The notes beneath the pieces are model-generated. The model was given only the letters and a program-made list of their open reading frames with translations, made no database searches and was not told the DNA's origin. From Clostridiales bacterium (GTDB lineage: Bacteria; Bacillota; Sulfobacillia; CADDZV01): a stretch of 63,210 bases of DNA. The stretch lies in the NCBI GenBank assembly GCA_902812875.1, contig CADDZV010000002.1, positions 43,318 through 106,527 of the forward strand. Direction: 5' to 3'. How positions within the stretch are numbered: position 1 is the stretch's first letter; each line of letters opens with the position of its first letter. The translations under genes and the position numbers were made by a program. Positions 11,900-38,642 of the stretch are shown here, piece after piece.

Positions 11900-11974
11900 A
11901 CTGGGCGTCCCTCCTTTTGGTGAGACGCCCGCGTGGCTTTTTACCAGCTGCACGTCAGCCGCCCCCTCCTGATT

Positions 11975-12053
11975 TCGGCAACCCGGCCGTCATGGCCGCT
12001 CCGCGGCTTTAGACCCGTGGCTTTGCGTCCGCCGCTTTCGCGGCGTTTGCCAT
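11975..12053 (-). ncRNA. Cyclic-di-GMP-I (GEMM-I) riboswitch
   Basis: The minus strand carries the full GEMM-I consensus. It has GGCAAACGCC, a GCGAAAGC tetraloop arm, the strongly conserved GGACGCAAAGCCACGGG, then TCTAAAGCC, a second arm, and ATGACGGCCGGGTTGCC closing P1 against the 5-prime GGCAA. The GAAA tetraloop of P2 and its receptor in P3 are recognisable. It lies upstream of a small membrane protein gene and of tadE/tadG, so c-di-GMP should control this pilus-related transcript. An expression platform is not obvious; the downstream GGGCGTC/GACGCCC hairpin encloses an AGGAGG and may act on translation. Confidence 0.92.
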
Positions 12054-12156
12054 TTTCGATCCGGAACGGGAGACTTTTATATTTCCCTGGTTAGATCGTA
12101 AACTGACCCCGGAAAATTTAGTGCCATTTTTCGTGGCTCAAAAACGCCGGCGAGGC

Positions 12157-32294: not shown

Positions 32295-32480
32295 GGCCGC
32301 AGCCGGTCCTTCTATCGCATCCCGCCGTGCCGTGGGCGACCCGGTTTTGAACCTGCTCCCGAGCAGGTGGGTGCTGCCTGATCGGATTTCCGCTTCCTCG
32401 ACCCGTTGCCGGGTCCCCCGGGGTGAGGCTTGCAAGCCACCGTCAGAGTCAAACGCTCCCAAGGTGATGGTGTTGGCTCT
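32295..32480 (-). ncRNA. ssrS: Probable 6S RNA (ssrS/bsrA)
   Basis: This intergenic stretch after aspS is structured on the minus strand. It contains ACCTGCTCGGGAGCAGG, then TTCAAAACCGGGTCGCCCAC, which matches the 3-prime side of the 6S central bubble (compare CCTTAAAACTGCGACGACAC in E. coli). A GC-rich closing arm and an intrinsic terminator (AGGACCGGC, loop, GCCGGTCCTTTT) end it at about 32290. In Bacillus the 6S-1 gene lies directly downstream of aspS, the same position. The 5-prime end is uncertain and no clean promoter was found. The rest of the gap (32481-32644) shows nothing that I recognise. Confidence 0.65.
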
Positions 32481-32644
32481 AAACGTCAAAGCCGCCCACG
32501 CACACCGCAGGTTGAAACCTGCCGAACGTGCAATTGAAATATTCAGGATTTTTCTAACTACTACCCAGGGACATTTTAGCATGCCCCCGGCAGCAAACAA
32601 AGCAGGCGCTCGCCGGATTGCGTCGCGGACCCCGCCATCGTAAA

Positions 32645-35825: not shown

Positions 35826-35908
35826 CGCACCCGTCCGCCACCGCTCTTGAGAAAAACAACGGGCCGGGGCAGGTAGCACCTGCCGCCGGCCCGCGCAGTT
35901 TCCCGCAT

Positions 35909-38440
35909 TCAGTGCATGCTAGCAAACCACCCACCGTGGTGAAGCTTTGCCCAGGCGCGCGTCACCTTGCCGGTAAACATGGCCTGAATGGTGCCCGGGT
36001 TGGCAAACGTCCCCAGGTACGCATGCCCAATCACGGCCGCCACCCCGATTACCGCCAGAATGATGTGTATGCCGCCGGCCACGAATACTACCGACAGCGG
36101 CAAACGGTCCCGGAGGATCAAAAGCACGCCAGTGATTCCAAGGCCGAGGCCGCCCAGGATGACGCCCCAGAAGTAGAGCTTTTGTCCGGCGTTGAACCGA
36201 CCCTGCGGCGGCAGCTCACCGTGGTAGCCAAGATAACCACCGAAATGCCGTAGCCAACCCCAGTCCGTCTTGGCCAAAAGCCCGTCACGCCACCACCGGA
36301 TGGCCATGAACAGCACCCCGGCAAAGAACACGATGCCCACGGCGCTGTGCCACAAGGTGGCTTCGCCAGTCGATCCGAACAGCGAATCCAACAGGCGTCC
36401 CCAGCCGAACAGTATGCTGAGCCCGGTGATGGCCAGCAGCACGAAGCTCACGAGTATGGCCAAGTGCACCAGGCGCTCTGACCAGGCAAACCGCTCGATC
36501 GTACCGGTCTCGGCGGGATCCGCTGCCTCTGACCAGTGCGGGCCTACCACCACGAAATGTAGCACTACAGCCAACAATACCAGCAAAAGCAGGATGCCCC
36601 ACCACGGTCGCATGGTCGCCACCGCGAAGCCGAGGAAGGTGGCGGCACCGTTACTGATACCGAGCTCACTCGCCCGCGTCTGCATGGTGGGCTGTCCGCT
36701 GCTGTTCCACGGGTCTAGCATCACCGGCCCGAAGAAGAACTGGCTTCCCGGGGCGTGGCAATCCTTGCACCCACCGGCGCCGAGCGCCTGTCCGGGTGCG
36801 GCCACATCGTGGCTGATGGCGAAGTTGGCATGGGCCTCGACCCCGGCCGCTTCAACGTCTTCCTTGGTAAGTTGGCCGTTTCCGTCCAGGCTATAAAGGT
36901 ACGGGTCTTTAACGTACACCGGGTCGATCTTGTCCACGCGCGGATTGCCGACCAAGGTCTTGGTCAGGGCCTTAAGCATGGCGGTGATTTCGGCATCCGT
37001 GTTGACGTCCGGGAGGCCATCCCCGTTGTCGTCCCTTACCTGCCCCTTCACGAGGTCACACGCCGGCTGGATCTCTTTGAGGAAGAGCGGCACCACGTGT
37101 CCGTCGGCATTGCGGTTGCCGAACCACACCAAAATCATCCGGTTGACCGGATGGATTTTGCCGTCCGACTCTTTCACGTAATCTGGCATCCACTGTCCCG
37201 GCGCCCCCACTGGCGTCCCCGGCACGGTGGACAGCTGCAGTTCGGCACCGGTTGAGATGTCCAAGATCTTGCGGCCCGCGACGGCCAGCGACGGTATGTG
37301 GCAGGTCTCACACGCGATCGTCTGCAAGTGCGACGCCGGGATGTTGTAGTGCATGGCGATGGTGGCCCCCAGGTAGCCGGTGCTATGGCAGTCCTGGCAC
37401 GACTTCATCGTGTTGTCGAGGTCGTTCCTGACCGTCTCGGTGGGCGTGTTGCCCTTGGCAAAGTTGTGGTCAATGCCGCTCGGGTGGCACGATACGCAGC
37501 TTATGCCCTGAGCATTGTGCACATCGGGATGCTGCGGGTCGTTCCACGTGAGGCCACGTTTCAAGGTATCTGCAAAACCGTGGCATTGGAGACAGTTCGC
37601 GTCCGGCGGCGATTTTACAATGTTGAGGCTCACGGTGCCGTCCTGGTTGAACAGGCGCAGGTTATAGGTAACGACGGGCACTTGCCCAGCCCTTACCGAC
37701 CCCTGCACCTCGCCGAGCCCCGCACCGACCGTCGCAGCCCACTTCAAGTTGTAGTTGGCAAGCTGGTTCATACGGGCCGACCACGAATAGTTGGGGAGGT
37801 GGCAGAGCAGGCAGTCCGCCTCCAGCACACCGCTTTTGTCCCACTCGCTCTGGTAGTAGTCCCCGTCCGGAGTTTTAGCCAGCTCAGGGTGGGCCGCCAG
37901 ATACTGGTCGTACCGGTTGCCCTGGCGGTCGTACTCCATGCCGCCGCCGCCCGGATGGCACGAGGCGCAACTCGGCATGGCCGGGTCGAACTGGGTAGCG
38001 AAGTCCCACTCGGTCAGGTCCATCTCGGCCGGCGACTGGTTGACCTTTCTCGCCAACTGGCGAGAGTTGGCCGGTCAGTACTTCCCCTGCATGCCCGGAG
38101 AGAGGCTTTCCGGGTTGGTCGTGCTGTAGTGGTCAGAAATGACGTCGTGGCCTTGCTGGAAATGGTAACCTTGCGTGATCTGGTTGTAGTCATGGCAGCC
38201 AGACAACCCGCAGGTTTTTTCAGGAGAATAGGGCTGATCAGCGTTTTGCCCCGCAAGCGGGTTGATGATATCGCCCGATTCCGTACGCAGGTAGATGGGC
38301 GGATGAGCGGTATCGGCATATGCCCTCACTGTGAGTGGCGCCGCCGCCAGCGATGCTCCAACCAAGATCAACATGAATACGAAAAGTGTCACATGCCCCA
38401 GAAATCTGCGCGGGCCTGGGGGACCCAACTGGAGAAACAA
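35909..38440 (-). CDS. Multiheme cytochrome c fused to cytochrome b, probable selenoprotein
   Basis: I read this as one 843-residue gene through an in-frame TGA at 38075-38077. Upstream of it are a signal peptide (LGHVTLFVFMLILVGASLAAAP), a CX4CH heme site (CGLSGCH) and GYHFQQGHD. After it come PANSRQLARKVNQSPAEMDL and seven CxxCH sites: CASCH, CLLCH, CLQCH, CVSCH, CQDCH, CETCH and CKDCH. About five C-terminal helices resemble the cytochrome b subunit of formate dehydrogenase (RFNAGQKLYFWGVILGG; histidines in RLVHLAI, LWHSAVG, GIHIILA, GHAYLG). It should move electrons between menaquinone and extracytoplasmic acceptors. TTG at 38438-38440 has AAGGAGG 8 nt upstream. The part after TGA alone would lack a signal peptide. 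A nonsense mutation is the alternative. Confidence 0.78.
38042..38077 (-). promoter_or_regulatory. Putative bacterial SECIS element with Sec codon
   Basis: After the in-frame TGA (38075-38077) the mRNA can form a hairpin. The upper stem is CUCGCC pairing with GGCGAG, closed by the loop AGUU. The lower stem is GACC, which includes the last two bases of UGA, pairing with GGUC. The loop begins 17 nt after UGA and has G as its second base. This fits the bacterial SECIS rule of a loop 16-37 nt downstream with a G in the first two positions. SelB would bind here. Confidence 0.68.
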
Positions 38441-38642
38441 CCGCACACCCTCCTTCGGTGAGACATGACATCTGTGCCTCGGAGGGCATCTACCATGGCC
38501 AGTGTAGAAAAAACGCGGGGACCTGTCTTGAAGCGGGGGATTTAAGCAGGCAGCGGCTGCGTCGATGACATCTGTCACACGGGCACCCTATGCCTGACGG
38601 GTACCTGATAGACGCGGTGAAAGTGCTGGCGTGTATACCTGA

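Follow-up and report, generated by a model that had tools for sequence, protein, structure and literature searches.

Two multiheme cytochromes containing selenocysteine (Sec) are given in a recent review (PMC13188914, 2026), namely ExtKL and one octaheme tetrathionate reductase (OTR) annotated in GenBank (WP_331457571.1). ExtKL was proposed in 2007 by stop-codon mining (PMC1914089), and selenite-reduction work followed later (PMC5877670). The second heme of OTR takes part in catalysis and has a highly conserved Lys as its ligand; MmcA, an electron conduit, lacks both this heme and this Lys (PMC11024163). Fusions of c-type and b-type cytochromes are known separately, as in CbcL of Geobacter sulfurreducens, where a periplasmic multiheme c-domain and a six-helix diheme cytochrome b form one inner-membrane protein (PMC9129911). 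Here, we analyze a gene that joins the two kinds of protein, found in a window of 63,210 nucleotides (the whole stretch of DNA that was analyzed) from a Clostridiales bacterium. None of the open-access papers searched was found to describe an octaheme c/b fusion that contains Sec, and we regard the combination as new, as a variant and not as a category.

Encoded on the minus strand, which the initial annotation had left unstated, the gene comprises 843 codons (Table 1). The initial annotation had described two open frames in one phase split by a single TGA, and this is confirmed. Indeed, both half-frames share one phase once the TGA is read through, and translation of 38446-35909 with TGA readthrough meets this sole internal TGA and the terminal one. 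The Sec is residue 122 when counted from the TTG start, and residue 124 in P0001 numbering. The first half carries, as had been proposed, a putative signal peptide together with one heme site; the second half carries seven CxxCH sites and a cytochrome b, borne out by the motif count and by PF01292 and TIGR01583, and has no export signal of its own. Taken alone, this downstream half-frame would start at TTG 38056, without a signal peptide. The two half-frames are almost certainly one gene for one exported, membrane-anchored protein. The next gene downstream is hisS, and the Sec cytochrome gene appears to be monocistronic; it stands alone in the window, with no neighbor there that would tell its substrate. 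Elsewhere in the window we noticed a c-di-GMP-I riboswitch (11974-12061, minus strand, 89 bits) and a 6S RNA gene (32315-32516, minus strand, 75 bits), the latter slightly downstream of aspS.

Table 1. Features of the Sec cytochrome gene, in positions of the window
Feature	Position	Strand	Basis or remark
Complete CDS with in-frame TGA as Sec	35909..38440	-	start TTG 38438-38440, stop TGA 35909-35911
Shine-Dalgarno AAGGAGGG, 7 nt ahead of the TTG start	38448..38455	-	sequence
Putative signal peptide (n-region with RR, then a hydrophobic core; ...RAYA-D)	38315..38440	-	predicted from sequence
Heme 1, CGLSGCH (CX4CH)	38192..38212	-	motif scan
In-frame TGA, Sec codon, context GKY-U-PANSRQLA	38075..38077	-	
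bSECIS-type hairpin UCUCGCC-AGUU-GGCGAGA	38048..38065	-	loop G at 38057
Heme 2, CASCH, presumed catalytic heme	37955..37969	-	FGAFH in two Sec-less homologues
Heme 3, CLLCH	37799..37813	-	motif scan
Heme 4, CLQCH	37580..37594	-	motif scan
Lys296 (P0001 numbering), ...ADTLKRG	37559..37561	-	aligns with conserved OTR Lys; Gln in heme-2-less homologues
Heme 5, CVSCH	37484..37498	-	motif scan
Heme 6, CQDCH	37385..37399	-	motif scan
Heme 7, CETCH	37298..37312	-	motif scan
Heme 8, CKDCH	36755..36769	-	HDVAAPGQAL just before, as in OTR
Integral-membrane cytochrome b, FdnI / formate dehydrogenase gamma type	35915..36499	-	
Probable intrinsic terminator, with a T-rich stretch after the GC-rich inverted repeat 35861-35892	35850..35892	-	sequence; unlisted by consensus scan

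With the CX4CH site upstream of the TGA and the seven CxxCH sites and cytochrome b downstream, the protein is an octaheme c-type cytochrome plus a cytochrome b. The heme 1 site, CX4CH in the window protein, is an ordinary CGxCH in every homologue found. The cytochrome b, of the b561/FdnI type and fused C-terminally to the c-domain, matches PF01292 (E 4e-20) and scores over the cut-off of TIGR01583. It is homologous to the membrane domain of FdnI (cytochrome b556 of formate dehydrogenase-N; E 9e-25), with His at all four heme-b His positions, which we take to be the FdnI heme-b ligands, and with the GxxNAGQK motif kept. Unlike FdnI, it is fused to a c-type octaheme domain and does not serve an Fe-S/Mo dehydrogenase. 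The likeness to CbcL is one of architecture, whereas CbcL has nine bis-His hemes against the eight motifs of the window protein, a small and largely disordered c-domain, and no Sec described (PMC9129911).

Judged from its sequence, the c-domain is related to OTR, though divergent. The window protein scores 49 bits against TIGR04315 (OTR), for which the cut-off is 375, and 52 bits, far below the cut-off, against TIGR04314 (MmcA); TIGR04315 is matched by six of the seven family members, all below its cut-off. Global profile-profile alignment to OTR, with the OTR sequences taken from the same phylum, gave a probability of 99.8, and the eight c-hemes paired one to one, the His-rich segment before heme 8 included. 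In PDB sequence searches, the b-domain matched FdnI alone and the c-domain gave weak matches of the NrfA type and no OTR, and an AlphaFold2 model made from a 7-row alignment (pLDDT 49, pTM 0.32) was too poor to place the Sec relative to heme 2. The Lys conserved in the complete OTRs aligned (CxxCH...GGGDxxK), presumably Lys153, the ligand published for the Shewanella enzyme, aligns with Lys296 (TLKRG) and with a Lys of the homologues from two other genomes, G611 and G683 (KKRG). From conservation and spacing, this aligned Lys is probably the OTR heme-2 ligand. Between hemes 1 and 2, OTR has a conserved Cys (INNFC) about 40-46 residues past heme 1, where the window protein has Sec, 39 residues past it. 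Exact column equivalence of the two was not upheld by six alignments, in which they stand 6-15 columns apart; that they are equivalent is possible.

The window protein differs from OTR by long insertions and by its fused cytochrome b. The Sec-containing OTR WP_331457571.1 was compared by its listing, in which the Sec position is not given, and a TIGR04315 search across 398 genomes of the phylum gave matches in 11 of them, none with an in-frame stop, and did not recover this published protein. ExtKL (NF040886, Geobacter) is likewise a predicted selenoprotein and a multiheme c-type cytochrome, but with five N-terminal hemes, a C-terminal part of unknown similarity and a chain that includes no membrane domain; NF040886 was not matched by the window protein at E 0.1 or better. 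The OTR relative MmcA (Methanosarcina, TIGR04314), unlike the window protein, has seven hemes, no cytochrome b and no Sec.

Relatives of the fusion were found in none of the 154 genomes of the window's own class. A sample of 398 genomes of the phylum contained it in G611, G384 and G346, and it was then found in G683, which is of the same genus as G611. In G611 and G683, which belong to another class of the phylum, the gene codes for the fusion at full length (848-854 aa) and has a TGA in the identical column (SPGMQGKY-U-PANSRQLARK in the window, SNGMMGKW-U-PPSYRQLAAK in the two others). Since the window and G611 proteins are 47% identical, with synonymous sites saturated or nearly so, the shared TGA is not an error that was copied recently. 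For the pair G611 and G683, dN/dS amounts to 0.20 upstream of the TGA and 0.08 downstream of it; dS, 0.47 overall, drops to 0.16 in the 30 codons that follow the TGA, a value based on few sites. The dN/dS values show strong purifying selection on both sides of the TGA in the homologues and, together with the shared column, they uphold the reading of the flanks as continuous coding sequence.

The initial annotation had advised looking for Cys or TGA at this position in homologues. TGA was found, in two other genomes, but no Cys was found at the Sec column within the family among the homologues found, which leaves the family without the classical Cys/Sec pair. The aligned residue is Ser in G384 and G346, and Tyr or Asp in the relatives from two WOR-3 genomes, which are octaheme proteins with neither TGA nor Cys and with the cytochrome b as a separate gene. 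In one WOR-3 locus (L019, 466-3312), the octaheme protein ends in a C-terminal hydrophobic helix and the separate cytochrome b gene follows, an unfused arrangement. A degenerate-pattern search of 84,980 genomes returned one WOR-3 relative only, a search of the class of the Sec-less relatives returned G384 and G346 again and nothing further, viral contigs gave nothing useful, and plasmids gave only cytochrome b of the FDH-gamma type. This patchy distribution, with one of 154 genomes in the window's own class and one genus of another class, suggests horizontal transfer.

A hairpin with an AGUU loop, at the distance and with the G expected of a bacterial SECIS element, had also been proposed, and folding and homologues bear it out, with moderate strength. 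The UGA is followed by 9 nt, a 7-bp stem, the AGUU loop and the complementary arm; the loop G, 17 nt from the UGA, is within the first two loop positions, and a weak outer helix pairs 38069-38072 with 38042-38045 (minus strand). The 42-nt fold (-17.4 kcal/mol, z -3.7 versus shuffles) beats nearly all shuffles, and the hairpin is stronger than 98.8% of the synonymous-codon shuffles of the same peptide (p 0.012); an equally strong hairpin lies downstream of 15 of the 826 codons of the gene. By itself, the window hairpin is moderate evidence. The folds that follow the TGA in fdhA and selD of the same genome and in E. coli fdhF are comparable to it. Moreover, the 12 nt CGCCAGTTGGCG (CGCC-AGUU-GGCG) are identical, and at an equal distance from the TGA, in the window, G611 and G683. 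Stem pair 5 shows a double change from U-A to C-G among the TGA genes, and pairs 6 and 7 are found in the window only; the G611 hairpin is by itself not significant (synonymous shuffle, p 0.11-0.20). No such hairpin was found in the Ser-codon relatives G384 and G346, where the RQLA/RQFA peptide is kept with other codons. That independent homologues share both the codon and the hairpin puts the window hairpin far beyond chance.

The source genome (G000; 96% complete, 0.2% contamination) was checked for selA, selB, selC and selD, as the initial annotation had advised, and all four were found. SelB scores 365 bits, over the cut-off, a tRNA-Sec with a UCA anticodon is present, and selA and selD (47% and 41% to E. 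coli, respectively) are adjacent on one contig. SelD itself has an in-frame TGA at the canonical place (KSG-U-ACKIG), and so does FdhA (NRT-U-HAPSV); together with selA, selB and tRNA-Sec, these TGAs indicate that the genome makes other selenoproteins. The loci concerned are on contigs C29 and C24. None of the refuting conditions that the initial annotation had listed was fully borne out. As far as sequence can establish, we are highly confident that the TGA of the cytochrome gene is inserted as Sec.

What the Sec might do is suggested by the homologues that have lost it. In G384 and G346, the loop is missing as far as the Sec site through a deletion of 22 residues, and Ser aligns with the Sec (DRWSVLEYRQFA); in addition, the CxxCH of heme 2 is replaced by FGAFH and the Lys by Gln (RQAG); every other heme and the cytochrome b are retained. 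As both genomes are of one genus, the triple loss is to be counted as one evolutionary event. It has a parallel in MmcA, which lacks heme 2 and its Lys, and it suggests a single functional site made up of the Sec loop, heme 2 and the Lys. The WOR-3 proteins have heme 2 without Sec, so heme 2 itself does not need Sec. The initial annotation had proposed an unusual redox center or heme ligand, leaving the choice open; the pattern of losses favors a role of the Sec at the heme-2 site. The two Sec-less, heme-2-less fusions (L024 and L025) adjoin genes for a ferredoxin and, by eye, a probable aldehyde:ferredoxin oxidoreductase, and may possibly have a derived role as electron conduits.

The reading that we prefer, and consider rather probable, is that of a Sec enzyme, a quinol-fed octaheme reductase with its Sec working at the heme-2 site, perhaps on oxidized sulfur compounds. 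The hairpin after the UGA would direct SelB and tRNA-Sec to insert Sec at codon 122, a strongly supported step. By domain homology, the FdnI-type cytochrome b would oxidize menaquinol in the membrane, and electrons would pass from its b hemes to the c hemes of the fused periplasmic octaheme domain. The Sec, in the loop between hemes 1 and 2, would be at the site of heme 2, which in OTR is catalytic and bound by Lys instead of His. In view of the co-loss, it would most likely be a redox-active or nucleophilic residue attacking the substrate, and a small oxidant would be reduced at heme 2 with Sec as partner. The likeliest substrates might be oxidized sulfur species that contain S-S bonds, for example tetrathionate, thiosulfate or polysulfide, or their selenium analogues. 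OTR reduces tetrathionate, and also nitrite and hydroxylamine; a sulfur substrate is our best guess because of this tetrathionate activity and of the thiol/disulfide-type neighbors in G611. There (L038, contig C39, 1592-9050), the genes that come after the Sec cytochrome gene encode a membrane ferredoxin resembling NapH and a flavoprotein resembling HdrA2, and a CoA-disulfide-reductase-like gene faces the Sec cytochrome gene; this neighborhood is possibly a thiol/disulfide-linked respiratory cluster. Tentatively, and with somewhat less assurance than for the enzyme as a whole, we propose that a Lys-ligated heme c and the Sec share the active site, the Sec acting either as direct selenolate ligand or as a nucleophile that forms a Se-S adduct with the substrate at the heme. 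We know of no natural enzyme with heme c and Sec in one active site.

A true selenoprotein could also have its Sec non-catalytic at heme 2. The protein would then be a CbcL-like, quinol-oxidizing conduit to extracellular or periplasmic acceptors, and the Sec would be structural, metal-binding or antioxidant. The architecture, with a b-type membrane domain and a periplasmic multiheme domain, is that of CbcL (PMC9129911), OTR relatives such as MmcA and the SmhA/OcwA type serve extracellular electron transfer (PMC11024163, PMC7829351), and no substrate gene is found beside the Sec cytochrome gene in the window. However, the joint loss of heme 2, Lys and the Sec loop is unexpected if the Sec is unrelated to heme 2, and the all bis-His hemes and largely disordered domain of CbcL contrast with the long, enzyme-like heme-free stretches found here. 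We consider such a conduit unlikely, though it is the most serious competitor of the Sec enzyme. It is less probable still, and in our opinion doubtful, that the Sec itself coordinates one of the c hemes axially, most probably heme 2, which would make the protein a natural selenolate-ligated cytochrome: the Sec loop adjoins the sole heme whose retention goes with Sec, but Lys296 is retained, so that heme 2 is probably ligated on that side already.

Very little speaks for the TGA as a real stop, whether in two genes, in a pseudogene or through a sequencing error. Automatic gene callers would split the gene at this codon, but its identical column in two other genomes, the purifying selection on both sides, the lack of a signal peptide in the downstream half and the presence of the Sec machinery led us to reject all three forms; a sequencing error is excluded by the recurrence of the TGA at the same column. 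That the genome reads TGA as an ordinary amino acid is hardly credible: nothing was found in its favor, the gene itself ends in TGA, selD and fdhA have TGA only at the canonical Sec place and a tRNA-Sec with the UCA anticodon is present.

In conclusion, this gene provides a high-confidence case of a Sec-containing multiheme cytochrome of the membrane, in which the position of the Sec is defined. Natural variants in its family in which the Sec, the catalytic-type heme and the aligned Lys are all gone make the role of a Sec beside a heme c testable. Furthermore, annotation splits such genes at the TGA, and Sec-containing respiratory cytochromes are probably under-counted.
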